NCBI RefSeq assembly: GCF_000003815.2
Contig: NC_049982.1
Span: 33,013,746-33,077,745 of the forward strand
DNA from: Branchiostoma floridae
Lineage: Eukaryota > Chordata > Leptocardii > Amphioxiformes > Branchiostomatidae
Length of the DNA stretch: 64,000 bases
Reading direction: 5' to 3'
Position 1 is the stretch's first letter, and every line of letters begins with the position of its first letter. Made by a program: the position numbers and the translations under genes. The notes under the pieces are model-generated. The model was not told where the DNA came from, made no database searches, and saw only the letters and a list, made by a program, of their open reading frames with translations. Of the stretch, positions 1,136-62,404 are shown one piece after another.

Positions 1136-4100
1136 CTGTTACATTTCAAAGTATACAATACGTTTATATATGTCTGGTTTACCAGCACATGCACTTATAT
1201 TCTTGCCAACAATATCAGACTTTGTACAATTCTTGACTTTCATGTGAAAAGGTAAGTTTGATGTGAAACTCTTCATCTGTGTCAGAATGCTCAATTCCCC
1301 CAGCTGCTGCCCTCTGATGGAAGTTCCTTAATAAAAATGATTGGTTTATTCAGAAACGCATACACTACGTACAAGGCCTTGCAGGCAAGCTCAGTTACCT
1401 GAATTATGCTTGTGCATACAAAATGACATACATGTAATCACATTTACAATTTATAGAAAAAACATTATGGTTTAAAAGCCATTCGTGATTACAGAATTAG
1501 TTTAAAACTAAAGAGTGGCACACAATAAAGTAGTGTAGTTGTTCGACTGTCCAAGTGGTACAAGTACATAGTCCATAACGTATGTGCTTTCCTTCTTGTC
1601 TACAGGTTGTTGATGCCATTTGAGCGTTACCTGCGAGGTGAGAAGGACGTGCCCCCCCCTCCCATCAAACACCGCGCCCGCAAACAGAAGGATGCAGAGG
1701 ACAAGGCAGTCAGGGCAAAGATCAAGGACCTCATCAAGAAAAATGAGGTTTGTTCCGCACTTTGATGTATTGTTAAATAAATTATCTAACTATAGAACAC
1801 GAAAACAACTTTTTTCCTTCTAAGAATGGGTGGCTAAAAGGTTTTTAAAAACTAAGGTAAAAAATTAGATGAAACATGTCCATGTAGCATGTATATTGGT
1901 GAAAATTCTTGCTATGCTTTAAATAACTAGCCTGGGTACCATCCGGATAGTAGTTCGCTAGTTTGTTCGCTTCTGCTATCCGTCTGGAGACCTGCACATT
2001 CAAACCGTTCGGTGCTAACGTCAGTTAATGAGTGAATCAAGGAATAGGTTCTAGAGCACTCACTCAATGACAACAGGTCCTCCCACAAGCAGACGGAGGG
2101 CTTGTATGGTGTTGGAACGCCTGTTCGAACGATTGCTTGTACCTATTCCATAATTCGCTCATATGTGGGGACCAATCAGCGCCTGCGTCCAAAATTTGGA
2201 CGATTCCAGACGTTGAGATGGTCCGCGTTCCCAGACGGAAACACAGAGAAGCGACTGTATATAGTGAATGTCAGAGCTAGAAGCGACTGTATATAGTATA
2301 TAATGAACGCCAGAGCGAACTTCTTTCTGGATGGTACCCAGGTTATCAAATAACAGGATGTTGTAATCTTTATTGTACATTGTATAACTGTTATACCAAT
2401 AGTATAACATTCCCTGGTATTACTTTCTTAATCCTTTCCTTAAGGAAGTTTGTGCAATGCGACTTATGATGATGTTTATTCACATTTGTGCTTCATGTGT
2501 CTAAAGCAAATTCTTTCTATTCCAGGACCAGCAACCAGGCAAGTCTTTGGATGGCACTGTTTCTGCACTGGCCAGTACCACAGAAAGCAGCCAGCCTGGC
2601 TCAACAGCCACGGTTGCCACAACTAATACCGTATCAGTGTCTGGTGCTCATGGGAAGGAGTCGTTAGTCAAACTTTCCATACCCAGTGTAAAACCAAGTA
2701 TCAACCCAGGTCCACCATCTGCACACAAAAGGAAACCTATGCAACAGGTGCCAGCCTCTGGGTCTCCACATGTTGTGGCCATTGAAATTCAGAGACCGGG
2801 TGTGGCTCCTCCCCCTCTTACAAGTGCTACAAGAAAGGCACAGCCACTGCCTGCCAACCGAGACGTTATCCGGGGACGCAGCACTGCCCCGCTGCAGCCA
2901 TCTCAGGCTGTTGCACCGTTACAGAAGAGTATTCGGCCTTCAGCTAACGTCTCTGTCAACAACAGTGAGAAGGCTGCTTCGGCATACGTCTCCTCCAGGG
3001 AGAACGTGCCAGTTTCAACTACCTCAAAGTCAGTTCCTTTGTTAAGTGACAGCGAATTGGTGCTAGAACTAACTACCAAGAAGGACAGTCAGGGATCCCT
3101 GGTGGAAGGGAAGGTGGTTACCACACCGAACTCACGCCTGCAAGGGGAGCGGAGGCTGACCATACCTGGCAAACCTCTGTATCCTCCACCTCCCCTAATT
3201 AAGGATGGCAACCACAGGTCAGCAGTGCACGCAGAGGTCAAACCTGAGCCTACTGCACACATTCATGTGAAGAGCAGTCCAGCCGTTACCAACCCGGCTC
3301 CTGGCTCTGTTGTGAAGGTATTTGTTCCAGAGAGAAGACAGGCAAATGCCCCAGAAGTCAAGGTGAACCCTACGAGGTCAACAAGATCACCTCCTGTGTC
3401 CAGGTCAGAACCTGCAAACAGTAGACCATCAGTGATCCAACACACTCAGAAAGTCAAGCCAACTAGTGCCATCCACCCTGATGATCTCATCCTGAGGCAG
3501 ATGTCACAGCAGCGGGATCACGGTCAGCATCAGAAGTTGATGCGGCCGTCCAACAGCATGACTGGCCACAAGCGGACATTGCCACCCACGGAGCAGCTAG
3601 AGCGGCACTACATGTCCCAACTTCTAGCTGCCCAAGCCATGGCTGGTCAGTTAGAATTGGAAGCATACTACCCTCTAGCAAAACGACCACGGGTAGACTC
3701 ACCATCGTTTGGTAAGGAAAACGCTGATGCCAAATACTACAGCAACAAGTTCCAGACCTTCTTCCCAGAAGATAAAGGTGCTCAGAGTGAGTGTCTACAG
3801 CCCGGCAGGTCGGCCGATGATTCTGACCAACCAACTGATCTCAGTCTTCCAAAATCCAAGGTGTCAGAAGAGGAAGGTTCCTCAAGACCAGTGGTAAATG
3901 ACAACAGACAAGCAGACCAGTTGGGCAGTAACTTGAGAGATCTCTCTGCCTTACAGGAAGGTCTTCCAGCAAACCTGTCTCACAAACTCAAATCTGAAAC
4001 AGAACGATCTGGAGGCGAAGCTAAGCCGGGGCTCTCAAAGATCACAGTATCCATACCAGGGGGTAAGCATGACGACAAGCGGCCTGCACATACAAAAACA

Positions 4101-4577
4101 GTTGTCTCCGTGCCTCCATCTGTCATTCTCACAACATCACCATCCAAAACAACCTCGTCCATGTCACGGTCCCACACAGAAAGCACTCCTTCCCACCAGC
4201 AGATTGTCATCCCCGACTACAACCCCAACCTACCACGGAGGATGGATGTCCGAGACGGGGTGCCCCATGTCATGATCACAGACTACAACCCCAACCTGCC
4301 CAAAGCTCCCCTCCTCATGCCGGAGTACAGTCCCCACCTACACTCTCCTCCCTATGCCCACCCTCACCTGTTAATGCACTCTCCCCAGGGACAGGTCCAA
4401 CTGTCGTCCCACCCTGCCGGCGTGTATGCGGGACACTTCCACTCGGCCATGTACGAGGAGATGCTCAGGCAGCACCTGATAGGCACACATGCCTATCCCA
4501 TGCAGCTGCCGCACCCGTCCATGTTCCCACACCTGCCAGAGGGATCCTTCCCCCCGCATATGTACCACAGTAACTAG
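509..4577 (+). CDS. ARID5: ARID5A/ARID5B-like AT-rich interaction domain protein, 3' part (partial)
   Basis: Exons visible are 509-561, 866-963, 1606-1747 and 2526-4577. All junctions are GT-AG and the frame is kept throughout. The first three exons encode the second half of an ARID DNA-binding domain. It includes LYLFFSLAQKIGGYEK, a W-K-H-I-Y-D segment, the hallmark GGNPGSTSAATCTRRHYEK and then LMPFERYLRGE, which is specific to the ARID5 subfamily. The last exon encodes a 683-aa Ser/Pro-rich, low-complexity tail. It carries PTDLSLP at 3831-3851, a fit to the CtBP-binding motif PxDLS. Three related Y-N-P-N-L-P-like repeats follow at about 4204-4360, and a His/Pro/Tyr-rich C-terminus ends in PHMYHSN. 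ARID5 proteins bind AT-rich DNA in the nucleus; vertebrate ARID5B works with the PHF2 demethylase. Upstream exons lie outside the window. A possible AATAAA lies at about 4640. Confidence 0.9.
613..681. repeat. 25-bp tandem repeat, about 2.7 copies
   Basis: The unit ATCGAAGATCCAGCAAG plus spacer recurs at 615, 640 and 665. It lies between the first and second ARID5 exons. Confidence 0.75.
1083..1133. repeat. (GT)n microsatellite
   Basis: About 25 GT units inside an ARID5 intron. They produce spurious poly-Cys/Val and His/Thr reading frames on the two strands. Confidence 0.95.
1928..2345. mobile_element. Mutator-like non-autonomous element, 418 bp, 9-bp TSD
   Basis: Inverted ends TAGCCTGGGTACCATCC and GGATGGTACCCAGGTTA. 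The flanks are TTAAATAAC (1919-1927) and TCAAATAAC (2346-2354), a 9-bp target-site duplication with one mismatch. No coding capacity. It sits in the ARID5 intron before the last exon. A 9-bp duplication is typical of the Mutator superfamily; that assignment is inference. Confidence 0.75.
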
Positions 4578-9078: not shown

Positions 9079-27849
<18,771 letters not shown>

Positions 27850-35457: not shown

Positions 35458-35841
35458 GATGATGTTACTACAGTTCACCTTCGCTACAGGATCAATCCCT
35501 TTAGGGGAGCAGCTTTAGGAGAGAGATTGGACGCGTGATGAGCTCTGCCGGCAACCAGAAAACCCAGAATCTCCTTGCCAAAACGTACTTCCGGGTTCAC
35601 AGGTCATAACCATCGGAATAGTGCATTTGGCAATAGGGATTTGTAACTGTTAACGTTATAACGACAAGTGATCTCTTGAAAATAGAAAATAGATTTCGAA
35701 GGCTTTGTATTTAACGTAATATCAATAAAAATTACTTAACTATATTGATATATCTTGCCTCTTATCTGTGTGATATTATTATATTGAAAGTAGACCACCC
35801 CTTCCTAGTGAGTGTACTGTCCCACGGTGTTCAGCAACACC
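35458..35841. promoter_or_regulatory. Bidirectional promoter between the aldolase-like gene and ANKRD16
   Basis: 384 bp separate the two divergent start codons. An ETS/GABP-type ACTTCCGGG lies at 35587-35595 and an ATTGG (inverse CCAAT) near 35527. GABP sites are common in promoters of mitochondrial and translation genes. No TATA box is obvious. Confidence 0.5.
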
Positions 35842-38800
35842 ATGGCCATGGCCATGCCTGAGCTGTGTCAGCTGGCCCAGCAGGGAGATCTCCCGAAGAT
35901 CCGGGCTCTCCTCGCCTCCTCACCGTGCCCGGACAGGCTGCTGGACACCCGCCACAGGAAGTCCGGCGACTCGGTGTTGCACTACGCGGCGCGACACGGC
36001 CACCTGTCCGTACTGCGGTACCTGTGTGAGGAGTGCGGGCTGAGTCCGGAGACTGGGAATGTGGATGGGAAGAGACCTCTGCACGAGGCGGCACAGGCGG
36101 GACAGACTGAGTGTGTCAGGTATCTGATCAGCAGGTAAGTCTGGCCAACACCTGTACCTACATCTGCAGCAAAATGAAGACCGATGACACTGTAGGTGTT
36201 AGCCTGGATACCATACCCCAGCCCAATCTCAAAGTATTTATCGTGCACGATAGATACTATACTTTGACGTTTGAGATCGGGCTGGGGTAAATTGGTATCC
36301 AGGCTATGTAGGTGTAGGCCCTACTAGTTGAATCCCTAGTACATAATGTATTCGTAACTTCATTCGTACCTGGGAGACCCCGTTTCGATTCCGAGGAAGG
36401 TATCATCTGGTTGTACGGCTGTACTACAAGGTCAAGGGTGAATTATATGGCCCCTGCCAGTTTGGTTGGTACTACAGCAGACGTCCATGTTTTGTCTTGC
36501 CTTTTATTATGCTTCATAATTCATAATTTATCATATAGCTAGGCGCCGCGGACCAAGCAGAAGGCCCCGTTCCACGCTGGTTTATATATATATATATATA
36601 TATATGACGCAGTAACATAGATATTCAGGAGACTAAATGGAAACATGGAAAAGACAGGAGGAACGAAATAAACAGCTGCTCAGCACCATTCGGATACACT
36701 TTGTATACCGCATCAGCCTGGGAAAACGAATCAAAGGCAGCAACGGGAGGAGTGGGTATAATACTTGGCAGGACTGCTCAAGATCTCCTCATAAGTGTCG
36801 AGCGACTGTCAGACCGCATCATCAAAGTCCAACTAAGAGGAAACCCAGCTATGACAATAATTGTCACCTATGCTCCGACAGAAGCAGCTGAAGATGACAG
36901 CAAGGACGCTTACTATAACCAACTGCGTGTAGCAATAGAAGGTGTGGCCCATCATGATTTTCTAGCTTTGCTCACAGACTCGAATGCACGGCTAAGCATG
37001 GACGATGTACCACACACATACAACAGAGTGACGAATAACAACGGTCAACGCTTATTAGAGATTCTAGAAGACTACCAACTGATTGCAGCCAATACTGTAT
37101 TTGAAAAGCGAAGAGGTAAACTGTGGACATGGAGGTCACCACAGGATACCTACCACCAGCTTGACTACATCATTGTTAGAGCGAAATGGAGAAACAGTGT
37201 GACCAACTGTGAGGCTTATAGCTCCTTCAGCTCACTCTACTCTGACCACAGGGTAGTCACAGCAAATGTGTCACTACGACTGCGTAAGAGCAAGCCCAAC
37301 ACAAACAAACAGGTGCCCAAGTACAAGTGGAGTGACCTAGCAGTAGACGAGGACCTCCAAGAGCGTTATGCTGTGGAGGTGAGGAACTACTATCAAGCAC
37401 TCCAGCAAGAAGATGAAAGGGGACAGACATCAGACTATGATAAGTTCATCTCAGCTAACGCCACAGCAACTGAAGAGTGCTTGAGGAAAGTGCCAAGACA
37501 GAAGAAAAGGTGGAAGTGTCTAGACCCTAGAGTCTGTGCAGTGAGAGAAGAGGTTGAACAGGCGTACCAGGAGTACCTGTCTGCGAATAAATGCAAGTTG
37601 CTTCGTGAGAAGTACAAGGAGAAAAGACAGGAACTGTATGGCACCTACGCTATCATTGAGCAAGAAGACCTGACCAGCAGAATTGAAGAAGTGGAGAGAG
37701 CACACCAGGGTTCGAAACTTGGCACAGCTTGGAAGTTAATCAATGACATCACAGGCCGTAGTAGCTCACAGACATCCAAGCTGAAAGCAAGTAGTCCGGA
37801 AGAACGTGTATCTCTCTGGCATACACACTTCAGCAACCTGCTAGGTAGCCCTCCAGAGATAAGCGAAGAGGATACGCCGATCGACCCAGTCTATGAGACG
37901 CTTTGCATCTCTGAAGAAGCCTTCTCAGAAGCAGAGTATGCAGTAGCCAAGAAGTCAATCCAGTGTGGGAAAGCCTGTGGAGATGACGGCATAACTCCTG
38001 AGTTTCTTAAGTACGTTGGACTTGATGACATAGTTCTGAGCTTCATCAACAAGTCTTTCGCTACTGGGGAGATACCAGAGAGTTGGAGGACGCTCATCAT
38101 TGTCCCAGTCCCGAAATCAGGAGATCTGTCAAAACCAGACAACTACAGGGGTATCAGCCTGATATCCCTCGTGCTGAAACTCTACAACAGGATGTTGCTT
38201 AACAGACTGAGACCCGTACTGGACCCATTGCTGAGGAACACACAGAACGGTTTCAGACAAGGGAGATCGACGGTGGGTCAGATAGTGGCGATCAGACGTC
38301 TGCTTGAGGGGGTTACTTCCAACAACCTAAGCTGCATCATGACATTTATAGACTTTAAGAAAGCGTTCGACACAATCCACCGTGGAAAGCTCATGAACAT
38401 ACTGAGAGCCTATGGAGTACCTGAAAAGCTAGTGTCAGCGATAACAGCAACCTACTCACAGACATGGGCCAAAGTCAGAACCACAGATGGAGACACTGAG
38501 ACCTTCCAAATACTGGCAGGTGTGTTGCAAGGCGACACACTGGCACCCTTCCTCTTTATAGTCGCTCTTGACTACGCCCTCAGATGTGCCATTGATGGAA
38601 GAGAAGAGCAACTGGGTTTCACCCTCAAGAGAAGAGCTAGCCGGCGTGTCCCAGCACAGATGGTGACAGACTTTGACTTTGCGGATGATCTGGCGTTGAT
38701 CTCCGACACAGCAGAAAGGGCCCGTATTCTCCTCGCTGAAGTGGAGCGACACTGTAGGAGGATAGGTCTACAGCTGAACGCCAAAAAGACCAAAGTCATG

Positions 38801-41800
38801 GCTTACAACACGTCCGACGAGAAAGTATCTTCTCTTGCTGGCACGCAGCTTGAGGTTGTTAAGGACTTCAGATACTTAGGTGGATGGATTGCTACATCAG
38901 CGCATGACATCCAGGTAAGAAAAGCCCTTGCTTGGAGTGCCCTCCATGGCATGAGAAGAGTGTGGGAGTCCAACATGGACAACAAACTCAAGCGAAGACT
39001 CTTTGTCTCCACAGTTGAGTGCGTACTGATGTACGGCTCGGAGACTTGGACTCTGACGGTACAAGACGAGAAGTCGCTCGACGGGATGTTCACCAGGATG
39101 CTTAGAAGGGTGTTAAATGTCTCCTGGGAGGACCGAGTGAAGAACACCACACTGTACGGTGACCTCCCTAGACTCTCTTATAAGATCAGGAAACGGAGGA
39201 TGGCGCTGGCCGGACATTGTGTCAGACACAAAGAACTGGTCGCTAACCAGCTTATCCTCTGGGAACCAACAGAGGGAAAGAGAAGAAGGGGCAGAATGCG
39301 GACATCCCTCATTAACAACCTTAAAAGGGACACACAAATCAACAACATCTCCACAGCTGAGCTTCGCTCCCTCATGGAAGACAAGTCTGAGTGGAGAAGA
39401 AGGATCCATTGCGACCCGTGAAGGCATCCCAAAGATGTCCACGTTCAAGGTTCAAGGTTCAAGGTCAACATAGATTCCGGCCAGGCCGGTGTGTTCGCTC
39501 CTTCTGATTGGTCAGAATGAATCGTGCCGGTGTTGATTCATTCTGACCAATCAGAATGAGCAATACACACAATAAAGTAAAGGAAATGCAGGCATTGGCC
39601 AATCAAAAGGAGCGAAACATACCAGAGCAGAGGGAATAAGTACAGACTGCAAGGGGGGATGGCTCCTTCTGTTAACATTGATAATGAGTTTTGTTGTTCT
39701 AAAAAGGCAAAGACTGCAGTGTTTCGAATATTTTCTGTGGAAATTTTGGTTTCAAAATGCAATCTGTAATCTCCTTATAAATGTATGTACCAAAGCACAA
39801 ATGTGAATTTTCATAAATTCGACAACGGTATTCACACGTTTAGTACCAAGAGATCTATGCGTCATACAGGAGTTTGCAAGTTTATGTAGGCTATATGATA
39901 ATAACGTTAATGACCCGCCTGTTCCTCGGTGTACATGGTGTTATAACGCCTGGTCCTTTGCTGTAACCACCTCATAAAACCAGTTTTATTCAGTGGTTAT
40001 AGGAAAGGACCAGGCGTTATGACACCATATACACCTCGGGGCGGGTCATTAACCCTTAATTATCTTTTAGTGTTAAATGAAAGTATTACTGACCTTGGTT
40101 TTTAGGAAAGTGAAGCCTGATCTGATATTGATCAACGTCGTCTGACGTCTGGCTATTATGATAATAGTTGCTACACTACTACCAGTAATTTATCTAACAG
40201 TTATTTCCGATGCATTTTGTTAGATTTAATTGATATTAATCTGGTAAAAGAATTAACCATCATCTATTACATGCTAATATTATTGATTACCTTTGTCACT
40301 GATGCTATACATGTTAACTAATATATTCCTTCTCTAGTCCTGTTAATACATAGGATCACCAGTGGCTTTGAGACCAGTGGCATTTGTGTAACCATTTTCC
40401 ACGAGGAGTATACTCCTCAAAATTATCTGCTTTATCAGCTGTTGTTCCTCTGATGCTAAAGATGTAAACTTGTTTGAGCACAAAAAAATCATGACAAGAC
40501 GGCAATATGGCACATCACAAAAACGCTTTGTTCCAGTGAGCAAACACAGTGTTCTGAACACATTAGCCTGTCAAGTTTGCATTTCTGGTAACAGTTGGTA
40601 TTTCTGATGTTGCATTTACCGTAATGTTACATCCCTAAGTAAAGTTAGCAGTGCCAGAAGTCTGCTAGTAGTAATAATAGTAGTAGTGGTAGTAGTATCC
40701 ATTTTAGATTATACTGCTTCTGGGGTCCCTGACAGGGGTAGGCAGCAGTCAGCAAGTCTTCACACTATGCTTCCATGTGGCCCTGTCCAGTGGGTCCACC
40801 CTTGTTAGACCACACACCTTGATGTCCCTCCTTGATGATATTGATATTGATATGTACAGTACATGTTGTGTTTCATTTTTAATTCTTTTAAAATCAAACA
40901 GAAGCATTCAAATCAATGTACTGAAGAGAGCTGACTGGACTCCCATCATGCTTGCCTGCACAAAAACCAACCTGACTGTTGTACAGTTACTGAGGGATGC
41001 TGGGGCTGACTTGACCATACGGAACAAAGACGGCTGGAACTGCTTCCATGTCGCCTGTAGGGAGGGTGATGTGGACATCCTGAGTTACCTGCTGGACTGT
41101 GACGGTACCCTGTGGGAGTCAGTCAGCACCAATGGTAGAACTCCGCTGCACACAGCTTCTCTACATGGATGTGTGGGGGCCACACAGGTTTTGCTGCAGA
41201 GGTAGGGTGATTTTCGTTTTCAATCCGTGCTGGCAGTAACATCATTAGAACAACAAAAAGGCCCACTGCAGTCCCAACAAAGGCTGCTGGGATGCCTGAA
41301 CCTACACCAAAGCCAAGACCTATTGCTCAAAAATCATAACCACAGGATATCAAGAACACAAGATATTAATGTAACGGCAATGAACTTTAATCCAACGCAA
41401 CTTTAATCCAACACTTTTCAGAACCCATCTGTCAGTCAAAAACTAGCTCCGGTTTGCAAATTCTTTTGAGTGCTTTACAAGACAAGTAAGGTATACGACT
41501 TAAAACCTTGTAAGTTTGAGCTCACAAAGATCGCATGTTGTAGCGACAAGTTAATCAATCTTCTGGTATGTTTTCATGCTGTTAATCAAGCCGTGTGAGG
41601 AGGGCAGCGATTGTAATTTCAAGCAACCCTACTCTTCGTCCTCACTTTACACATTAATCATCACAGTAAATATAGCGAAATATTAATAAACTGTCCATCC
41701 AACACAACCAACATGCCTTGAAGTGTCCCTCTTTAAAGTACAGGGCCAGGCTTTGTTACACAAATTCAGTGGAAATCCGAACACGCGCCATTTTGAATCA

Positions 41801-44800
41801 TATTTCAGCACGCCGCTTCATCCCTATTTTTGAAAGTGATCACATCCAAAGGCCAGTAGGACGGATCTCACTGGCGATACCATTACAGCCCAACATGGGG
41901 GACGTGCTGTAGGGAGTTTGTACTGTGTTTTGCAGTTATATTTTTGGGGAACCATTCACAAACAACGTATTTTGCCACCATTTGCTAACCAAACAACGGA
42001 TGAAAAGTTTCAAAATACGTCATAACTGTGTAGTAGAACAGCAGAACGGATTTGCCACTGGTTGATGCATTTTGGGGCCGTGTTTTGATCGCGTCTATCA
42101 GCAGTTTACCGACATGCCGATTTGCCAATTTAACCTTGAGTAAGTGCCTGCCGATTGATACAAATTTGTCGTTGTAAATATGAAATCCATAGATAAACAG
42201 CCTTGTTATATTATTGTGTTGGATTAAAGTTCCACTGGGAATAGAATCCCAAAGGACTTGCTATCAGTTACACTGTCTTTGAAATGTTATTTTCTCGCGA
42301 CACAACAGAAAGTGGCAGACCGATGCATGTGTAGCATTGGCCGGGGAAACATAGTAAACAATGCACTAAACAGTTTCCAGAATGCGCTAAAGCCCGCTTG
42401 TTTATTCATGGTTCAGTTTGGAATTTGCTGGAATGTGTTGGATTAAAGTTCAGTGCCGTTAAGAAAGCCAGATGTTTCTCAGGCTCTCAGCAGTAATGTA
42501 GAAAGCTACAAGTGGGCCATAATCTAATACTTAGTAATAGTTTCTTCATTTTCTCAATACTTACCAACATACCAAATATTATAAAGATCCATCCAAATGT
42601 TCTTGTTATGTTGATCACAAACAGGCAAACACACACACACAGCTTCCTTTCTTAACACTAACTTTCAACCCAAATCCTGGTCACAGTCAAACACGACTTC
42701 TCTCTGAGCATGAGCAGTTCTTCTTCTTCTTCTTCTTAGGCCTACTGCCCATCCTTGGCCATAGGCCACGAACTAGCTGCTTCCATCTCCGGAACAGTTC
42801 TAGACAGCAAAAAGATTTATATCATTTGAATCATTGAGCTGTGTGAAAGACTAGTCCAATAATAGATTACAGTACAGGATAATCATGTCATTCTTATTCT
42901 GATGCGAGTCTTACCTGGGGAGTTTGAGAAAGTTAACACGTATGCTGTGATGATGGATAGTTATGATTATCATTATGATGTGTATATGATTGTACTTATG
43001 TTGTACCTGGTCCGGGATAACGTACGATAGGGATGTTCCGCACTGGTAGATGTAATCAATGCGGTATATATTGTATCAGCCCGACTGTGAAAAGGCTGGA
43101 GGGTGATCCGACCAGGCGATTGGCTGGGACAAAGGTGATCAATATAGAATACATGGTGTTGTATTTGAGTATGCTGTGATACATGGTGTTGTATTTGAGT
43201 ATGCTATGCTGCGGAGCCAAACCGATTACAATTGGTTCTTGTTACAGATCTCATACTTATGCAAAAGACATTGACTTTGTAGATAAACTGAGAGCCTCAT
43301 TAAACAAGATTAAACCACAAGGTGGCCAAGTATGGCTATGGGGGGATCTCAATTTCCCTGGTATAGACTGGAACAACTTAAGTGTGAGCCCAAGCGCTCC
43401 CTATAGTGCACTTTCTAAACATTTTTTAGAGTTAACACATGACTTTGGGCTCGAACAGGTTGTGGATCAACCAACCCGTCTCAATAACACCCTTGATCTT
43501 TTCTTAACTAATAATTCATCACTTGTTGAAACTTGTTCTCTGATCCCAGGTATAGGGGACCATGATGGCATCCCAGTTATTACTGTTAATGTTAAACCTA
43601 AGAAAATCAAACAAAGCCCCAGGCGTGTTTCACTTTGGAAAAAAGCTGATGAAACCGCCATAAGAACTGAGCTACAGGAATACAGTAATAATTTAGCTAA
43701 ACGGAACATTGACAACTGCACAACAGAAGAGCTTTATAATGAATTTGTGGACAAAATCAAGATAGTGATGGATAAATATGTCCCATCCAAAACTGTTAAC
43801 AATAATAATTTTTCACCTTGGATTAACAACAAGGTTAGGAAAATACATAAGAAAAAACAGCGAGCCTACAACTCTTATCGTAAAAACCCAACAACCGAGA
43901 ACTTGACTAAATTCCGCACTATTCGCAAACGAGCAAAAAAGACTACCAGACAAAACTACCGTAAATATGTAAATTCTATATGTTCTGATTCCCCCAAGAA
44001 GTTTTGGTCGCACATCAAACACTTAAAACAGGATACAACTGGGATCCCTAGTCTTAAGCAGAAAGGAAAGCTAGAAACAGATAACAGAAACAAAGCTAAC
44101 ATCCTTAACAACCAATTCAGCTCTGTCTTTACACGAGAGGATGAACACATGCCCCACCTCCCCCGTAGTTCTATCCCCACTATGCCTGACTTTTCCATCA
44201 ATGTAAACGGAGTTACCAAACTCCTGAAAGATCTGAATCCACACAAAGCAAGTGGACCAGACGGCCTACCAACAAGGATCCTCAAACTAGCAGCTGCTGA
44301 GTTAGCCCCTGCTCTGACTATTATTTGTCAGAAATCACTTGAAACTGGCCAAATCCCTTCCCCATGGCTACATGCCAATATCTCTCCCATCTTTAAAAAG
44401 GGGGACAGGACTGATCCTGCAAATTACCGTCCTGTTTCTCTCACATGTGTTTGTAGTAAGGTTATGGAGCACATAGTGCAATCACAGATGATGGATCATT
44501 TTGACACATACTCTATATTATCTAACAAGCAGCATGGGTTTAGGAAAAAGCGTTCATGTGAAACCCAACTTATTTTAACTACAACTGACTTAGCCCATTC
44601 TTTAGATACCAGGTCGCAAACAGATATGATTATAACCGACTTCGCAAAAGCTTTTGACAAAGTACCTCATGATCGCTTACTCCTAAAACTCCAAAATTAT
44701 GGTATTAGGGGTAAGGTACTCCACTGGATCTCTAATTTCCTCAAAAATCGTAAACAAAGAGTGGTAGTTGGGGGCGAGCACTCAGAGTGGGCAGAGGTAG

Positions 44801-47800
44801 TCTCTGGAGTGCCCCAGGGCACTGTGCTCGGACCACTACTGTTCTTAGTGTATATTAATGACTTAGCCGACAACCTCAACTCTAACATCCGTCTCTTTGC
44901 GGATGACTGCGTCATTTACAGGGAGATAAACAGTGACAGAGATCACACCCTCTTACAAGAGGACATCAATACATTAGATACATGGCAAAACACATGGCAG
45001 ATGAAATTACACCCGGACAAATGTTTTGTTATGCGTTATACCCACAAACGTAAACCTAAACTCTACGACTTCAAACTAGGAAGTCATGTTCTAGCCGAGA
45101 CTAACAACCACAAATACTTAGGAGTCACACTCAACAACCAGCTCTCTTGGTCACAACACATACAGTACAGTGCTTCCAAGGCTAACAAGACGTTAGGCTT
45201 TGTGAGACGCAATCTTTATAACTGCCCCAAATCAGTCAAAACAAATGCATATACATCCCTTGTTAGACCGCATTTAGAGTATTCCAGCGCTGCCTGGGAT
45301 CCATACCACAAAGAGCACATTGCTAAGTTAGAGTCCATTCAAAAAAGAGCGGCCAGATTTGTCACAAATTCGTATCATAGTTATGATAGTGTCACCAAAC
45401 TTGTCTCTGATTTGGGGTGGGACACTTTACGCAACAGAAGGATAGCAAATAGATTAACAATTCTACAGAAAGCAAGACACCATAAAGTAGCCCTGCCGGT
45501 CGAAACTCATCTAAAGCCTGTACCGCGCCAATCGCGACACTCAAACCCAAATTCTTACAAGGCTCTACCTTTTCACAAAGACTGCTACAAACATTCCTTC
45601 TTCCCACAAACCGTGAGAGATTGGAACTCTCTACCGTACGAGGTCACGGAGATCACAGACGCTCCAAAGTTCAAGGAGGCAGTTCTCCAACGCCTCAGGG
45701 AACATTAAGGCGCAGCACTCCCCCTGGACGCTTTGCCCCAACTGAGGGGCGTTGTCCAGTACCCAATCAAGATCAAGATCAAGAGATCAAGATTTTATCC
45801 ATATCATACCCTCCAAAGAAACACACATGTTTCAATGCAAAATTGAATAAAACAAAAATTGAAACAGCAGCAATTCCAACACGCGAATCCAGTATTCAAA
45901 TTATTTAAAAAATGCACACAAAAGTGTGGTAAGGTAATTTTATGGAAGCCTGTGTGATAACAGTAGTTGATAACCCAAGTTATTCTCACCTCACCTCACC
46001 TATCCCTTGGCCTACTAGTGGTCGTTATCACTTGCTCTATAAAATCTGGAATGTTATCACGGCCCAGGTATAACATATATTCACTGTATAACAGTATTGC
46101 ACAGGCTTCAACATATATATTACATGGACTTCCATTGATTGATTTTAACTCACTTTGTGTGTGCTGCATGTGCCACTGCCAAAAGTTCGATGTTGTTACA
46201 ATTTTTGTTGGAGGATGCTACATTTTCTCAACTTCTGGCACAGTTCATATTGAAATGTGTGTTTCCTCTGGTGGGTATGACATACGAGGGGCGGTCAATA
46301 AGTAATGCCCCTGACCCACTTCCAGTTGTCTGATCTAGATGAAATTTTGTATGTGTAATGAATCATATCTTTATAGGTTATGTTGCAAAAAACAGCTCTG
46401 AACTAATTGTGGTTTCTGATTTACTGGTGTTTGAACTGAGTCAGGTGTGAAATGGACCAGGTGTGAAATGGAACCAGTTGAGTGTCGCGCAGTGATCCGG
46501 TTTTTGTATTTGAAAGGACGCACACCAAAGAAGACTTTTGGTGAAATGAAAGAAACTTAATGGTGATGATGCCCCATCATATGACCTTGTAAAACGCTGG
46601 CATCCTGAATTCAAACATGGCCGGAAGTCTGTGGAAACAGCTCCAAGACCTGGTCGTCCCTCTTCTGCCATTGATGAGGCATCTGTTGGAGGACCAACCT
46701 GGGGTGTCCTACAAAAACGGTGTCCAGAGATGGATCAAACAATGGGAGAAATGCATAACTCTGGGTGTTTCCTATGAAGAGAAAGACTGAAAACTGTGCC
46801 AAGTTTCATTAATCTCCTGCTATGGAAAATGGGTCAGGGGCATTACTTATTGACCGCCCCTCGTAAATGAAATGCGACAAGGTGTATTCCTAGTCACCCT
46901 CGATCCCAGCCCTCCCATTGGTTGGATCACCCGTCTTCCAACCCATGGGAGGGCTGGGATACAGGGTGATAGTATATATAAACATATGTGAAAGCTGTTA
47001 CTGTTGATATAAAAACGTAATTAAGGAATTCCATTGCACAGATGTAACTATGCACCTGACACACCTGACAGCTGTGGAAGTACACCTCTCATGGATGCTG
47101 TTCGAGCCGACAACATTGACCTGGCACAGCTGCTGGTCAAACAACACGGAGCTGATGTCCAGAAACTGGACACTATGGGTCGGCAACCTCTGCACCTGGC
47201 TGCCCAGGCTGGCTGCATACAAGCTGTCAGGTATATGCATAGGTCCACTTTACACTAAGAACAGTATAGGTTTCACAGGGCATTTAATACCACTTACCGC
47301 ATAGGGAATTAATAACAAACAGTTAAAAAAAATGCCCTCTGCAGTTCAAAACAAGCTGCTAGGGGGTCCAAACTTACACTATTTATATACTCCAAGACCT
47401 ATCCATGGTCACTAAAACATGAACATGGTAGTTGCAGAGAATGTGACGTTAAATTTTGAAGCTCTGCAGTACCATAACTAGCCACTAGGAGGCTCAATTA
47501 TCGAACTTGACCTTCCTTTTTGTGACTCCTACATATCTACTAAATACCTTGCAGAACTGTTTACAGGTCCTCGAGTTTTATTGTTAACAAACAATGATAC
47601 AAACACACAAACATACACAGCCTGCAGAAGCTTAGGAAAATTCCTAGTGAATCATTTTCAAACTAGACCTTCCTTTCCACAACCGCTTTATCCATCCATC
47701 CATCCATCTATATCCATCCATCCATCCATCTATATCCATCCATCCATCCATCCATCTATATCTATCTATCTATCTATCTATCTCTTTATATTATATAATT

Positions 47801-48196
47801 AGAATGCAAACATGGATTGGATAGTTGGTTCATTCTATACTTTTTGCATTAGAATAAAGATGTCTCTATGTTCTATATTCCAGGTACCTATTGACTGAAC
47901 ATGGCATCCCTGTGGACACCCCTGCCCCAGGGAGTGGGTTGACCGCGCTGCATTTTGCAGCCAAAGAAGGACAAACAGATGCAGTAAAGCTTCTAGTGAG
48001 ATTTGGGTCAAATGTCAACATAAAGGACGACAAAGGTCGGACGGCCCTGCACATGGCGTCTGGCGGTCAGCACGCCGAGTGTGTCAGGGTGCTGCTGACC
48101 AGTGGGGCGGTGGATGGCACGGACCGGTCAGGGAACACAGCAGAACAACTTGCAAGAAAGAAAACTGTTAAAGACATCTTCAGGCAAATAAATTAG
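35842..48196 (+). CDS. ANKRD16: ANKRD16, ankyrin-repeat co-factor of alanyl-tRNA synthetase
   Basis: Four exons: 35842-36134, 40902-41201, 47042-47230, 47884-48196, joining in frame to 364 aa (vertebrate protein about 361). All three introns are phase 2 and split an Arg codon (AG|R), as if each exon were a repeat block. About nine ankyrin repeats run end to end: [130 protein letters not shown] and [25 protein letters not shown] and NKDGWN are ANKRD16 hallmarks. In mouse, ANKRD16 binds alanyl-tRNA synthetase and removes mis-activated serine. The first ATG of MAMAMPEL is used; the upstream frame opens only with GTG. An AATAAA overlaps the end of the frame (48187-48192), but may not be used. Confidence 0.93.
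36200..36306. mobile_element. Short Mutator-like hairpin MITE, 9-bp TSD
   Basis: 107 bp: TAGCCTGGATACC and GGTATCCAGGCTA ends, CAGCCCAATCTCAAA pairing inside, and TGTAGGTGT on both sides (36191-36199, 36307-36315). Ends resemble the 1928 element. Confidence 0.9.
36581..36604. repeat. (TA)n microsatellite
   Basis: About 12 TA units just upstream of the RTE-like LINE. Confidence 0.9.
36623..39466 (+). mobile_element. RTE-like LINE, 5'-truncated, open frame
   Basis: AACATAGAT flanks both ends (36614-36622, 39467-39475), a 9-bp duplication. One frame is open from the first base to the TGA at 39419-39421 (about 932 codons). An AP-type endonuclease comes first: [20 protein letters not shown] and SDHRVV, with the N-terminal ~40 residues lost to truncation. 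Reverse transcriptase follows with [39 protein letters not shown] and the catalytic FADD at 38678-38689. The C-terminus has [10 protein letters not shown] and a basic [10 protein letters not shown] very short 3'UTR and three TTCAAGG units close it, as in RTE elements. It is young-looking, with no stops. ANKRD16 intron 1. Confidence 0.9.
39478..39625. repeat. Nested palindrome / small MITE
   Basis: TCTGATTGGTCAGAATGAAT (39503-) pairs with ATTCATTCTGACCAATCAGA (-39555). An outer GTTCGCTCCTTCTGATTGG pairs loosely with CCAATCAAAAGGAGCGAAAC. It directly follows the LINE. Confidence 0.55.
39911..40048. mobile_element. piggyBac-like MITE (TTAA duplication)
   Basis: TTAA on both sides (39907-39910, 40049-40052). 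The arms TGACCCGCC and GGCGGGTCA are followed by ACGCCTGGTCCTTTGC/inverse pairing. 138 bp, non-coding. Confidence 0.65.
41374..42459. mobile_element. Non-autonomous TIR DNA element, about 1.1 kb
   Basis: Ends ACGGCAATGAACTTTAATCC and GGATTAAAGTTCAGTGCCGT, flanked by TA. GTTGGATTAAAGTTC motifs are repeated inside at both ends. No transposase frame. ANKRD16 intron 2. Confidence 0.7.
42460..43039. other. Intronic DNA without a gene
   Basis: ANKRD16 intron 2. Holds a short (AC)n near 42630 and a (TTC)n near 42718-42738. Nothing else recognised. Confidence 0.5.
43040..43204 (+). repeat. Repeat family A, left half (split by a LINE)
   Basis: Contains GCGGTATATATTGTATCAGC and GAATACATGGTGTTGTATTT. 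The last ~32 bp (ATACATGGTGTTGTATTTGA...) are tandemly duplicated. The right half resumes at about 45792 with TTTTATCCATATCATACCC. Confidence 0.6.
43205..45791 (+). mobile_element. CR1/jockey-like LINE, 5'-truncated, open frame to 45708
   Basis: The open frame spans 43183-45708 (841 aa); its first few residues come from flanking repeat. It starts within the endonuclease: [10 protein letters not shown], then [10 protein letters not shown] and IGDHDGIP. Reverse transcriptase has [59 protein letters not shown] and FADD at 44893-44904 (residue ~571). The C-terminus has [18 protein letters not shown] and [13 protein letters not shown], typical of CR1/L2/jockey-type LINEs. The 3' end is a short GC-rich UTR with a (GATCAA)n tail. 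No stops, so recent. The clade call is by motif only. Confidence 0.88.
45792..46075 (+). repeat. Repeat family A, right half
   Basis: Begins TTTTATCCATATCATACCC and continues through GAAACACACATGTTTCAATG to CACGGCCCAGGTATAACATA, matching the right part of the 27240 copy. Confidence 0.65.
46285..46863 (+). mobile_element. Internally deleted mariner element
   Basis: Ends CGAGGGGCGGTCAATAAG and CTTATTGACCGCCCCTCG, flanked by TA (46283-46284, 46864-46865). Inside, a broken frame from about 46469 reads like the mariner N-terminal helix-turn-helix ([15 protein letters not shown]). A frame change leads to [20 protein letters not shown] and APRPGRPS. After a large deletion comes a piece like the transposase C-terminus. 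The catalytic D,D,D core is missing. Confidence 0.9.
46872..46985. repeat. Repeat family A, 5'-end fragment
   Basis: GGTGTATTCCTAGTCACCC and GGCTGGGATACAGGGTGATA form the imperfect inverted pair seen at the start of other family A copies. Confidence 0.55.
47690..47790. repeat. CATC/CTAT tetranucleotide repeat
   Basis: Blocks of (CATC)n separated by TATAT and passing into (TATC)n. ANKRD16 intron 3. Confidence 0.92.
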
Positions 48197-54650: not shown

Positions 54651-54750
54651 NNNNNNNNNNNNNNNNNNNNNNNNNNNNNNNNNNNNNNNNNNNNNNNNNN
54701 NNNNNNNNNNNNNNNNNNNNNNNNNNNNNNNNNNNNNNNNNNNNNNNNNN
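54651..54750. other. Assembly gap (100 N)
   Basis: TAAATAGAAT occurs on both sides (54621-54630 and 54751-54760), so the gap may hide a local duplication. Confidence 0.99.
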
Positions 54751-56452: not shown

Positions 56453-56613
56453 GAAAATGGCCAAATCCTTCTAAAGAGAATCCAAAAATACAAATGTGAA
56501 GATAGTCTATGCACTTGTTTAAATGTCATTTTAGGCCAAAACGTATCCTCCCGTTCCATTGTTGAAGTTCCATTGTGAGAATTACTTTGCAGCCCAATAA
56601 TTGAGCTGAGATA

Positions 56614-56803
56614 CTGTAAATGTATTTAAGTTCGCGGGGATTTAATTTCGCGGTAGCGGGAAAAGGACTTTCCGCGGAGGATTTAAGTTCGCGGTAATAC
56701 CATAGACTGCAATCTGATATCATAATAGAAAAATGTTCGCGGTGGTTTTAAATTCGCGGTGAAGTGGTCACAGCGAAAACCGCGAACATTTCTGCATTTA
56801 CAG
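56614..56803. mobile_element. CTGTAAATGC-family MITE
   Basis: 190 bp in opposite orientation to the 13955 copy. TA on both sides (56612-56613, 56804-56805). Confidence 0.85.
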
Positions 56804-57429
56804 TATGTGGTATGCGGGTCAACTTGATCTGCTGAAAGAATTGTCCAAGTCTACAATAGACACCACGCTTGTAACTCGGAGCTAACTGCCGTGATTTTTT
56901 TATGAGATATGTCACAAGTTGATGTCTCAAAACCTACCCAAATACCAAATATCATTCTATAATCCACCCATATCGTCTTGTGTGGTGCTAGCAAAGCAGT
57001 TCAGCAAAAGGACTAGGAGGAAGAGAAAGGAGCCGATGAAGAAACATTTAGTAAAGTACAAAAAGGGAGAAGGGAAACGATCTGCGTTTGTTGGCAAATG
57101 GTGGCTTCCTGGCCCAGTACATTTATGGCTACGTTTTTACTAAGTTCCTTTTTTTTCATTCTAGCGACATGTAGTATAGACTAGATCGCCAGCGGGTCGC
57201 TTCTTATATGTCAGCGCACAGTTTAGAGAAAGATGTGTTGCTATAAGTATAAGAAATATAGCTTAATGGTTCATAGAATTCCACATATACAGTTCTACCC
57301 GCTTCGCGTTCAAAATGGTTCCTCCCCGCCTGGCGAAATATATACATTCATTGAAGGAAGACCAGATACATCATTAGCAGACTCACGACTTTCAGCCATG
57401 GAAACGCCCCGTCCACAAATAGGTCCCTG

Positions 57430-57529
57430 NNNNNNNNNNNNNNNNNNNNNNNNNNNNNNNNNNNNNNNNNNNNNNNNNNNNNNNNNNNNNNNNNNNNNNN
57501 NNNNNNNNNNNNNNNNNNNNNNNNNNNNN
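57430..57529. other. Assembly gap (100 N)
   Basis: Lies 122 bp upstream of the first small membrane protein gene, so its 5'UTR or promoter may be incomplete. Confidence 0.99.
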
Positions 57530-57651: not shown

Positions 57652-57897
57652 ATGGAAGCCGTCAACGCCACTGCAGCACCGCTGGCGCCCGATCCTCCGT
57701 ACGGAGTGGCCGTGGTGTCCGTGGGATGTCTGCTACTCATCCTCGTCATCCTCATCACCATTTTTTGCCTGGTGGACAGCACGGAGGACAAGGACGACAA
57801 ACTCCTGGCTGACCTGGAGGCCATGGATCCAAAGGGGAAGGACCCCGAGGTGCAGATGCTCCGGCTGGAGTACAAACTGAAGGCTGTAGGTCTGTAG
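57652..57897 (+). CDS. Small single-pass membrane protein (81 aa), unrecognised family
   Basis: Single-exon frame from an ATG in good context (GAACCATGG) to TAG. Residues 1-17 are short and extracellular-like, with an N-glycosylation sequon (NAT at 5-7) and no signal peptide. One long hydrophobic segment follows at about 18-40 (VAVVSVGCLLLILVILITIF). The tail is Asp/Lys-rich (STEDKDDKLLADLEAMD) and ends LEYKLKAVGL. This predicts a type III protein, N-out/C-in. An AATAAA at 58740-58745 would close a 3'UTR of about 850 nt. It resembles the neighbour at 60876: N-x-T-A-A near the start, the F-C-L exit of the membrane segment, and the closing K-L-K-x-x-G-L. I do not recognise the family. Confidence 0.72.
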   Translation: MEAVNATAAPLAPDPPYGVAVVSVGCLLLILVILITIFCLVDSTEDKDDKLLADLEAMDPKGKDPEVQMLRLEYKLKAVGL

Positions 57898-60875
57898 GAA
57901 GGCAGGCGGCTGGAAGAAGAGCATCACTTGCGAGGAATTAAGAACATGAGCCAAAAGGAGATATCAACGGACAGTAGGCAAAAACGGTCAACACCACGGA
58001 CCCGTCCTTTCTTATATCAGTTTGCCAATATATTATATACTGTACATGAAGACTGAAGAAATCTAGCGGAAGCTTTATTGGATGGGTATGGGGAATAGTG
58101 CGTATGCAGCGAACCGGTCCGCCATTTTCTCAACTGGATACGTGCTCTGATTTTTCAAGAGCTAGTTGTATCGATGTTGTAAGTCTTTTTAAGCACTGTC
58201 GAGTACCGTTACGTGTCTTTATTTGCTCTACAGATCAAAAATGGCGTGTCCTTTTTTGCTTCCTATGAAAAGTGTTGCGTCTGAATGTATTTCCAAAAGT
58301 CTGCTTTTGGGATCAGTTTTTTGTATGGAAAAGGTACATTTGTAGTGTCGATAGAAGAGGTTTGCTGATTGAGTTGCGTATCAATATGGAGACATATATG
58401 GCTAATCTAAGCCACAAAAGATGGACAAAAATGAATGTTCTTGTGCTGAGCTACATTTACATATAGGTTGTGCAGAGTTTTAGACAGCAAATGCTGAATC
58501 GAATTTTGAATTTTGAAGAAGATGAGATCGAACCGCCAAGGGGATGGTACGTGAGGAACACAAACGTATGTGTGAATACGACTCTGTGAAATATATGTTC
58601 AGGCCCAGCCAGTCAATGTACATTTTCTTACAAGTTCAATATGTCTTAGAAATCGACCTCTGTCACTGTGTGTTGAGATACTTGAACTGACAGAAATTAT
58701 AAGCTCTCTCTATGTAAATCGATTGAGATTTATTTGTGAAATAAAACTGTGAATGGTAAAACTGTTATGTCATGGGTGTTCCGTAGAAAGAAGGGGTGGA
58801 TTAGTATTAAAGGCGACCCAAGCAATATTACAGCGTTAAAAGTAGAAATATTCTTGGTAAGGCAATCTGTATAATATTGACATCTACTGCACTGTATTCC
58901 CATATTTACATCATTATTATATCATCTGAACGGCCCAGAGACAAGTCGCAGGAGGATATTCGTTATTATTGAAACCCCCCCAAATTAGGTCTTGACCAGG
59001 AATCCTCGTGCGGCTTGTTTTTGTGCCGTTTTTAACGGCTCAATTTATGAAATGATGTAAATGTGCTAAAATAGTGCATTAGATATCATTATTGTACAGA
59101 TTAGTTGAATAGGTAGCGGAACGATGTATAACAGTAACATGTGCAAGAATAAGACCAAAACATATCAATAACATCATCTATATAACCCTGTATATCATAA
59201 TAACATAGCTGTATGAAATATCTGGGCATTATGGTGACATGTCAATATACGGCGACTGGACATTTTCCCCGTCAGACAGTTCGAAATGAAGGCAATGAAA
59301 TATAGTCAAGGATTCAGAACCCCCTCTATGCCTAAAGGGACGGGCCAAGATTTAGAAGTAAAGGGTTTTGTGCGAAAAATACTGATGCTGAAGTAAAATT
59401 GCCATCTTGGTAAGTGGTACCAATTTACCACACTAGTGTCAGTTTTACTACACCAGTGCATTTCTAGATCTTGACTACATGAATGAATGGCTGTGTTACC
59501 ATGTTTTGTCGCTTCGGTTCTTGTTACAATGTTAATGGCAGTCTATTTGCGCATGCAAAATTTAGCCATTTTCTTTTACCAATATTTTGTTCAGCCCTAT
59601 GTCATTATTTTTGCGGTCTGTAGCGGATGTCATCCATAAACTGTACCTGTTGTGGCGTAATTATAATGAAAGTTAGGCCCTCAGAAAGGAAAGGCCCCTG
59701 AGGCCAATCCTTAGACTGACGCATGAGAATCTTGTGTCCGGTACAAGGACGCTGGTTATGTGTTTTGCATACATGATGAAATCGCTGTGTCCATTTTTGT
59801 AGATTTCTGAGCTGAAGGCAACAAGGTATAATCACAATCGGTACATGAAATTATAGTAAACACGTGCAGCATTCACATCATTATCATCGGTCGGCTGCGG
59901 CGCAGACGACTGTAAGTTTCTTCACATCTAGCCAGATTCTGCCCAATATCGATAAATTCAGCACCCAGGACAGATAGAATTCTGGGGAGAGGCGTTTGCA
60001 GGCGTTTGCAGTACGGCGTACCGGTACAAAACCATTTTTCCTTGTGGGAGCGGTCCAGAAAAACCGGACCGGATGTTGGACCGATTCAAAAATGAACAGT
60101 TTATACCGGCAGGCGCGCGCACGTGTTTTGGAGCTTACAGGTCCAAGAAAAAGCGAAGTAGAGGATAGTTGATAGTCATTTTTACCAAGCTTCTACTGTC
60201 AGACTTGGTTAAGACAGAGTCAGTTGTTTACATGGCTCGGATAGGATTTTGGCCAATGGAAGTCGGATACTCCACAAAACAGAATCCTTTGTAGCAATAT
60301 GGACCATTGGTTTGAGTATCGCCCATTCACAAGTTTTCACAGATGATTAGGTCCAGCTTCAGGTCCGGACCTGGACCTGATCCTCTGGACCTGGATCGTA
60401 CCTATACCTGAATTTTCTTTACCGAAACCCAACCCTAGTCGCTATGCATCAGAAACTGATGGCTTATATATAACTATCTATATGTCTTTCTATCTACACA
60501 CACACGCTAATTGTGAACAAGTAATACAATTATTTTTTAGCATATGATGAGATCACGACAACATCCCCATAGATGTCTCAGATTTCTTCGTTTTATAACC
60601 TCCCCTTTGGGACGTTATCAACCTACAGTACGGCGGCGTCTATAACAGAAATAGACGGAAGCCCTGGTCACGATTCCCAGACGGTAACTCCTTCTGGACC
60701 ATTAACATACCACAGAAGCTGTCCTCAGGGACGGAAAGTAAGACACTGAAGGGAGGGATTCTCACCAGCCAGTGGTAAAAGTGAGTGTGATGGTAATTCT
60801 ACCGTTTTGCGCCTATTTTATAACGACATTGCGTACGGCGGACTGAGGGTCTAACTGAGGTGCGGTTTTTTCATC
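57898..60875. other. Region between the two small membrane-protein genes
   Basis: Holds the probable 3'UTR (to about 58760) and a half copy of the 48225-type TIR element (about 59394-59660). GGACCTGGACCT-rich sequence related to the 19012 element lies at about 59990-60437. The 5'UTR of the second gene follows. No further gene supported. Confidence 0.5.
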
Positions 60876-61127
60876 ATGGCATCGACGAACACAACAGCAG
60901 CAGCCTATATTGTTGAAACTTCCTCTCCTCCGCGCTTCATGCTTTACTTCGTCGGCGTCGTCGTGGGTATGCTCATCTTGGCAGCCATGCTGTTCTGTCT
61001 GTATCGCCGGATGACGGGAAGGGAGCAGCGCAACAATCCGGGTGTAGAAATGTTGGAGTCCGGGGATCTCACTCCTACAGAACGGTATGAACAACTGGAC
61101 AAGAAACTCAAGGAATGCGGGCTATAG
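60876..61127 (+). CDS. Small single-pass membrane protein (83 aa), paralogue of 57652
   Basis: Single-exon frame from ATCATGGCA to TAG. The N-terminus MASTNTTAAAYIV has an NTT sequon at 5-7, at the same residue position as NAT in the neighbour. A membrane segment spans about 20-43 (FMLYFVGVVVGMLILAAMLF), followed by CLYRRMTGREQRNN, so the positive side is cytoplasmic. An acidic stretch leads to the end LDKKLKECGL. Length, topology, sequon position and C-terminal motif match the 81-aa protein 3 kb upstream. KCNE-type channel subunits share the general plan of NTT plus one membrane pass, but I see no KCNE-specific motif. Function unknown. Confidence 0.72.
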   Translation: MASTNTTAAAYIVETSSPPRFMLYFVGVVVGMLILAAMLFCLYRRMTGREQRNNPGVEMLESGDLTPTERYEQLDKKLKECGL

Positions 61128-61940
61128 GGAGACGGCTGATGTTGAATGTACATTAACAAAAAAATCACAGAGCACAGAGAACGTAACATTTTCCCCTCTA
61201 CAGGGAAGGTGATAACGGCGTCAGGAAGGAAGCCTTTACAAATTGATCTGCTAGAAAAAGGATTGAAACCTTACCTGTCTTTTCCATAAGGGCCTTGCAT
61301 TGTGGTATCCAGACGAAAGTCGTTGGGCAAGGAGAGCTATGTACGTATACAAACGCATGGTGACAACTGGCTGTATATTCAACAGTTCACGAAAGGTCAG
61401 GAAGATGATGAGATTGAGATGTATTTAGCATGCAGAACGAATAGTAACGGTAGAGTTTTTGTAACGTCACATTCGGCATCTTACACCTTTTAAGATTCGA
61501 GTTGACCCGTTTGTGTGTGTGATGAAGTAATTATATTGTTAAAGAAGGAGACACGTCCACGGCACCCTCTTACAGATATAGGTGCATCCTTTTACATACA
61601 ACATTACTGCCGCAGCATTTCACGTCGCACTTTGTTGCTCATCAACTTTCGAACGAGTCATGTGTTTGCCAGTGAATTCCGTGCAATTATCCGGATGGTG
61701 CAATTATGCGAAGTTATCTAGCTGGACCGCACCGGTTTTTTGGATTTGAGGATTCCGTGCAGTTAACAGAGGTGTGTGTTAATCCGTTGTGCAATTAACT
61801 GGCTTCTACTGCATCACATTAGGTAGTTGACAAGCATTTGGATACATGACTACAGCAATGTAGTTCATGCTTGGTTCAACTGTGACGAACACTGCCTTGT
61901 GAATATCGTATACCCTTCAGTGTTATGGCTGTATTTCTTA

Positions 61941-62137
61941 TACCCCCCTCAGATTAGGCGCGATTCGATCGGACGACGAGTCTGCGAGCTCTATATTACG
62001 AGGAGGCATGACCCTGATGCCGACGAAAAAATGGCAGAATTTCCCCCAGTCCCGTCAGGGCTAGGGTCATGCCTCCTCGTAATTTATAGCTCGCAGACTC
62101 GTCGTCCCATCGAATCGCGCCTAATGTGAGGGAGGTA
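61941..62137. mobile_element. PIF/Harbinger-like hairpin MITE (TTA duplication)
   Basis: TACCCCCCTCAGATTAGGCG and the inverse CGCCTAATGTGAGGGAGGTA form arms of about 85-90 bp that also carry TCTGCGAGCT and GAGGAGGCATGACCC. TTA on both sides (61938-61940, 62138-62140). Confidence 0.82.
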
Positions 62138-62404
62138 TTACGACACATTCCGAAGTGACCGATCTCAAAAGTAAGGCCTAGAAAAAAGTTACCCGACCGA
62201 CGGCTGGATACCAGGCTACCGACCCTATCCCTTTTTGGGGTCGACCATCATCTTTTATATCTGACCCTCTGAGTTATAAGATTCAAAGGAGACTTCCTGT
62301 GATTCACAATCATTTTAACAGTTGGTGGAAGAATGCGTAGTTAGCATTGTTCTTCTTTGCATGGTTTATCAACGTATGTGTGCTTGTATAATGTAGAGTC
62401 TGTA

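Follow-up and report, generated by a model that had tools for sequence, protein, structure and literature searches.

A candidate tandem pair of diverged genes for small single-pass membrane proteins in Branchiostoma floridae

Two short open reading frames near the end of the window (the whole stretch of 64,000 nucleotides of Branchiostoma floridae DNA analysed here) raise the question of whether they are genes, whether they descend from one ancestral gene and whether their products belong to a known family. The reading preferred here, to which we assign a probability of about one half, is that they are genuine genes, a tandem duplicate pair that diverged long ago, and that their products are small membrane proteins of a type absent from the libraries searched, perhaps serving as accessory subunits. 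The two frames are referred to as P1 and P2:

57652..57897 (stop codon included), plus strand: P1, open reading frame for an 81-residue single-pass small membrane protein (frame present, codon bias, full-length match to P2)
60876..61127 (stop codon included), plus strand: P2, open reading frame for an 83-residue single-pass small membrane protein (frame present, codon log-odds, full-length match to P1)

Two reading frames and their mutual likeness

Both frames were found where the earlier note had placed them, on the plus strand and separated by 2,978 bp, and both were uninterrupted over the part seen, in line with its description of an intronless coding part. The features that it had listed as common to the two proteins were likewise present: an N-glycosylation sequon at residues 5-7 with A-A directly after it (N5-A6-T7-A8-A9 in P1 and N5-T6-T7-A8-A9 in P2), an F-C-L near the end of the membrane segment (F38-C39-L40 and F40-C41-L42, respectively) and the ending K-L-K-x-x-G-L at the C-terminus (K75-L76-K77-A-V-G80-L81 and K77-L78-K79-E-C-G82-L83). 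Each protein displayed a single hydropathy peak, namely one strongly hydrophobic segment with a top 19-residue Kyte-Doolittle mean of 3.18 for P1 and 2.63 for P2.

When each protein was compared with the 64-kb window by tblastn at E-values up to 1, only the query itself and its partner were detected, without a third copy, and the match between the partners covered their full length (81 and 83 residues) with 24% identity and E-values of 7.5e-4 and 8.0e-4. A profile built from both proteins did not reveal a third member among 1,671 six-frame fragments of at least 25 amino acids either, the next best match having an E-value of 0.38. The pairwise Smith-Waterman score was 63, a value that full shuffles never attained in 5000 trials; when the N-terminal, membrane and tail segments were each shuffled separately, 6 of 5000 shuffles attained it, regardless of whether one protein or both had been randomized. 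For the tail alone the likeness was modest (score reached by 166 of 5000 shuffles) and for the N-terminal part alone it was not significant (1296 of 5000); thus, neither segment by itself carries the result. Anchoring the comparison at the C-terminus gave five identical residues among the final seven, equalled by 6 of 200,000 shuffles, and anchoring it at the start gave four matches in residues 2-10, equalled by 2284 of 200,000; both end likenesses together were found in none of 200,000 shuffles, these stretches having been picked after they were seen.

The reciprocal tblastn match and the segment-preserving shuffles support the earlier proposal that the two frames arose as tandem copies, now diverged, of a gene for a small single-pass protein, and the sequence comparisons make common descent of P1 and P2 likely, though not beyond doubt. 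It could be argued instead that P1 alone is a gene, P2 having arisen as an open frame by chance or being a copy in decay, and that the composition of the membrane segment inflates their likeness; in favour of this, the number of identities in the global alignment was unremarkable (reached by 885 of 3000 shuffles). By contrast, the score of the same alignment was exceptional (2 of 3000) and the match spans the proteins from the initial ATG to the final residue, the two ends being in register. Identities at the three codon positions (0.46/0.56/0.27) did not depart clearly from the shuffle mean (0.40/0.54/0.32), and a DNA-level repeat of at least 20 nt (seed 11) pairing the two frames was not detected, which fits an old duplication as well as the absence of one.

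Coding evidence and surroundings of the pair

Codon log-odds were derived from six training stretches in other genes of the window, the limits of which were set by eye, partly from presumed gene identities, and compared over 84 ATG-initiated reading frames of 60-130 amino acids free of N, 20 of which overlap training or reverse transcriptase regions. P1 ranked first of the 84 with 0.432 bit per codon and a GC3 of 0.75, and P2 ranked ninth with 0.055 bit per codon and a GC3 of 0.60. In both cases the own frame scored best, narrowly so for P2 (0.055 versus 0.028 for the best other frame). The candidate signals around the frames were as follows:

58740..58745, plus strand: AATAAA, candidate polyadenylation signal of P1, about 840 nt past the stop codon (motif match only)
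60816..60824 (listed at 60818), plus strand: TATA-like stretch, about 55 nt before the ATG of P2 (motif match only)

The TATA-like stretch was one of seven that a scan of the two upstream regions gave, and the nearest AATAAA or ATTAAA downstream of P2 lies at 63032, about 1.9 kb away. The weak codon bias of P2 counts against the preferred reading: its score is near the background, other short reading frames score equally high and, taken with the distance to the nearest polyadenylation motif, this would suit a chance or decaying frame. Nevertheless, P2 runs for 83 codons without a stop and its own frame is the best of six, if narrowly, and together with the in-register ends this leads us to regard the explanation by P1 alone as unlikely.

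A further alternative is that neither frame encodes a complete small protein, each being instead a visible coding exon of a longer, spliced one. In P1 the open frame reaches back to 57355 and runs through a 100-N assembly gap (57430-57529) located 122 bp upstream of its ATG, which therefore is the probable rather than the proven start; moreover, acceptor-like sites occur upstream of both P1 and P2, those of P1 ending for instance at 57164 and 57629. Against this, the ATG that opens each frame sits in a favourable Kozak context, with A at -3 and G at +4 as read by eye, the alignment between the proteins runs from this ATG onward, and a stop codon is located 21 nt upstream of the P2 ATG, so that longer spliced proteins seem highly unlikely to us. 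Other assembly gaps in the window were found at 20123-20222 and 54651-54750. Overall, we consider P1 and P2 to be probably real genes derived from an ancient duplication, with better support for P1 than for P2.

The window bears genes, as judged from the Pfam-supported ones nearby: a KRR1 gene, an adducin/class II aldolase stretch, three ankyrin-repeat stretches and two reverse transcriptase reading frames that lie between the ankyrin-repeat stretches and would be of the non-LTR type. Their positions are:

35812-36138: ankyrin-repeat stretch (Pfam)
36608-39421: long reverse transcriptase reading frame (Pfam)
40708-41205: ankyrin-repeat stretch (Pfam)
43180-45708: long reverse transcriptase reading frame (Pfam)
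47858-48196: ankyrin-repeat stretch (Pfam)

A WD40-like stretch remained below the Pfam cut-off (20.6 versus 27 bits). A unit of 94 bp is repeated about 8 times at 25213-25965. Its consensus includes an AG acceptor and roughly the first 50 bases of a WD40-like exon, together with a GT that precedes GTACT repeats, and the open frame continues beyond the last copy; this might be a minisatellite derived from an intron-exon junction, perhaps forming a row of decoy splice acceptors. At 16678-17140 a 52-bp unit occurs in about 9 repeats with 96% matches, and at 2505-4577 there is an open frame of 690 codons with a good coding look, for which no Pfam family was found up to an E-value of 0.01. Upstream of P1, at 56611-56806, 27-nt inverted repeats (81% complementary, arms 142 nt apart) with TACTGTAAAT ends and CGCGG motifs look like a MITE, and just downstream of P2, at 61940-62138, a 76-nt inverted repeat (93% complementary, arms 47 nt apart) looks like a small foldback transposon.

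Predicted structure and topology

Structures of both proteins were predicted with AlphaFold2 from two-sequence alignments, both models being built on the same P1 and P2 sequences. The segments concerned are:

57703..57774, plus strand: P1 membrane segment, residues 18-41 (hydropathy peak from residue 19, AlphaFold2 helix 17-56)
57844..57894, plus strand: P1 predicted C-terminal short helix with K-L-K-x-x-G-L, residues 65-81 (AlphaFold2 helix 65-78, pLDDT about 60-68, ending shared with P2)
60936..61004, plus strand: P2 membrane segment, residues 21-43 (hydropathy peak from residue 25, AlphaFold2 helix 20-53)
61074..61124, plus strand: P2 predicted C-terminal short helix with K-L-K-x-x-G-L, residues 67-83 (AlphaFold2 helix 67-80, pLDDT about 58-73)

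The mean pLDDT amounted to 67.0 for P1 and 64.7 for P2, good confidence being confined to the membrane part (87-88 for P1 and 82-90 for P2 across residues 21-40). The models agree in layout, with the membrane helix followed by a short helix that stops just before G-L. This tail helix is predicted with low confidence. It is preceded by D-P in P1 and by T-P in P2. Helices commonly begin at D-P or T-P and commonly end at G-L, and on these grounds the ending shared by the two proteins may be read as a capped helix. Amphipathicity of the last 18 residues was not significant: 12620 of 20000 shuffles attained the observed moment in P1, and 3774 of 20000 did so in P2.

The earlier note had assigned an N-out, type III topology to both proteins, which the charges flanking the membrane segment fit for one of them only. 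For P2, the net charge over 15 residues was 0 before the segment and +2 after it, which by the positive-inside rule suggests that the N-terminus lies outside with a usable sequon. For P1 the corresponding values were 0 and -5 (N-terminal amine counted), and the acidic flank after the segment disfavours this orientation; if P1 is not N-out, its sequon would be cytoplasmic and unused. The topology of P1 is the weakest point of the picture drawn in the earlier note.

Comparison with known families and possible role

In agreement with the earlier note, which knew of no named family with this ending, none of the matches of P1 or P2 in Pfam (24,736 families), NCBIfam or the PDB passed a cut-off. NCBIfam, the models of which serve bacteria and archaea, gave zero matches, and PDB searches by single sequence and by profile yielded nothing significant (best E-values 0.17, 0.23 and 0.53). 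Viral contigs scanned with P2 and with the pair returned 14 and 225 pattern matches, respectively, with 0 confirmed, and among the literature matches listed there was no paper on the pair. As a control, 8 shuffled copies of P2 were searched against Pfam and gave three stray matches at E-values of 0.083-0.21, which shows that matches near such values mean little.

Several sub-threshold candidates were rejected. The conotoxin family (PF02950) matched residues 25-62 of P1 only, with 19.2 bits compared to a gathering cut-off of 25.1 (E 0.0024), and its cysteine framework is lacking, as P1 contains just two cysteines, both within the membrane segment. DUF7942 matched P2 with 15.6 bits compared to a cut-off of 26.7 (E 0.016); Cadherin_C_2 and Anthrone_oxy for P1 and Chordopox_A13L, APD1-4_M and Adeno_E3_CR2 for P2 were below threshold as well. 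In a pairwise panel of ten proteins against the two queries with 1000 shuffles, the scores of glycophorin C with P2 and of SMIM24 with P1 were reached by 10 and 20 shuffles, respectively, which is not a finding given ten proteins and two queries, and SMAGP, stannin and PDZK1IP1 were at chance level with both.

EVA1/FAM176 (TMEM166) was the one lead worth keeping, a weak one concerning P2. Accordingly, P1 and P2 might be distant, shortened relatives of EVA1A and EVA1B that kept the N-terminus and the membrane segment and replaced the tail. Like these proteins they are single-pass, and the N-terminal and membrane segments of P2 align with small gaps. The Pfam profile FAM176 (PF14851) matched P2 with an E-value of 0.055 and 13.7 bits, placing residues 6-49 on profile positions 9-52 in equal spans, a score far below the gathering cut-off of 31.5 and in the neighbourhood of what 3 of the 8 shuffled copies of P2 produced. 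Pfam scored both human sequences used for the pairwise comparison, EVA1A and EVA1B, as FAM176 (E 1.3e-58 and 2e-58). The Smith-Waterman score of P2 was 70 with EVA1A, reached by 1 of 30000 shuffles, and 69 with EVA1B, reached by 14 of 30000, and hhalign aligned P2 with EVA1 over 23 columns with a P-value of 1.6e-4 and a probability of 50%; the value of 1 in 30000, however, is not significant once corrected, as FAM176 was chosen as a match among 24,736 families. P1 shares little with either protein (267 of 30000 shuffles for EVA1A and 7140 of 30000 for EVA1B), and FAM176 was not among the Pfam matches listed for it. Moreover, the tails of P1 and P2 are under half the length of the EVA1A tail, the conserved C-terminal motif of EVA1A and EVA1B is missing from both, and the tails scored at chance level against this motif (15097 and 19703 of 20000 shuffles for P1, and 5063 and 3667 for P2). 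Taken together, descent from EVA1/FAM176 appears quite unlikely. An expression study of Branchiostoma belcheri (PMC5752451) lists a gene labelled eva-1 homolog C, which nothing connects with the pair.

The layout of P1 and P2 resembles that of the KCNE (ISK) potassium-channel beta subunits, and the pair might therefore represent invertebrate members of this group: they are small, have one membrane segment and carry a sequon at residues 5-7, as do human KCNE1 and KCNE3 (N5 and T7 columns invariant in the alignment). The coding part of KCNE genes is also uninterrupted, as in P1 and P2. Furthermore, hhalign placed residues 42-56 of P2 on residues 64-78 of KCNE1, where P2 has N-N-P and KCNE1 N-D-P. 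Membership nevertheless fails on sequence. The hhalign probability was only 5.9% (P-value 0.0064), the KCNE1 score was reached by 434 of 1000 shuffles for P1 and 703 of 1000 for P2, i.e., at chance level, and the best of six KCNE pairs, KCNE3 with P2, was reached by 52 of 1000. The N-terminal part of P1 and P2 is under half the length of that of KCNE1, and the columns invariant in KCNE past the membrane segment (S68, D76, P77, Y81 and I82) are mostly absent. The Pfam family ISK_Channel was not among the matches listed for P1 or P2, with filters that drop most matches above an E-value of about 0.1. We thus give hardly any credence to KCNE membership. Glycosylation of KCNE1 peptides is, by its title, the subject of a paper by Bas et al. 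(2011) cited in a review (PMC6929149), and the passages of a paper that names both KCNE and amphioxus do not mention an amphioxus KCNE. The FXYD regulators of ion pumps are comparable in size class and single pass; they differ in that F-x-Y-D is absent from P1 and P2 (read directly) and no significant score was obtained, the FXYD chain in the PDB profile search at an E-value of 1 being a chance match.

Returning to the reading of P1 and P2 as real, diverged duplicates, we propose a common plan in which a short N-terminal part bearing the sequon at residues 5-7 precedes a membrane helix with F-C-L at its end, and a linker leads on to the short helix that terminates in G-L. Insertion of the protein would be brought about by this membrane helix itself and leave the N-terminus outside, where it might be glycosylated, at least in the case of P2. 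The membrane helix would then pair with a larger membrane protein, while the C-terminal helix, with G-L as its cap, could offer a surface on which that partner or cytoplasmic factors dock. The role would be that of an accessory or regulatory subunit, KCNE- or FXYD-like in manner without being a member of either family, and we infer that small partners of a larger membrane protein are what P1 and P2 most likely are.

Small single-pass proteins are easily overlooked in annotation, and several of those in vertebrates regulate channels and pumps. It is plausible that P1 and P2 constitute a new two-member set of such proteins, ordinary in kind, and the pair is a modest lead rather than a discovery. 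More tentatively, they may have founded a family of small membrane regulators, as yet undescribed and either confined to lancelets or spread more widely among deuterostomes, that is characterized by the sequon, the F-C-L helix and the capped K-L-K-x-x-G-L helix, with the tandem pair kept through long divergence because the two copies serve different partner complexes; we see this as possible but doubtful. Should P1 and P2 turn out not to be expressed or conserved, they would show how far in-register ends of short frames deserve trust. If they are expressed and conserved, an unnamed family would be added in the lancelet, a lineage that serves to infer the chordate ancestor.
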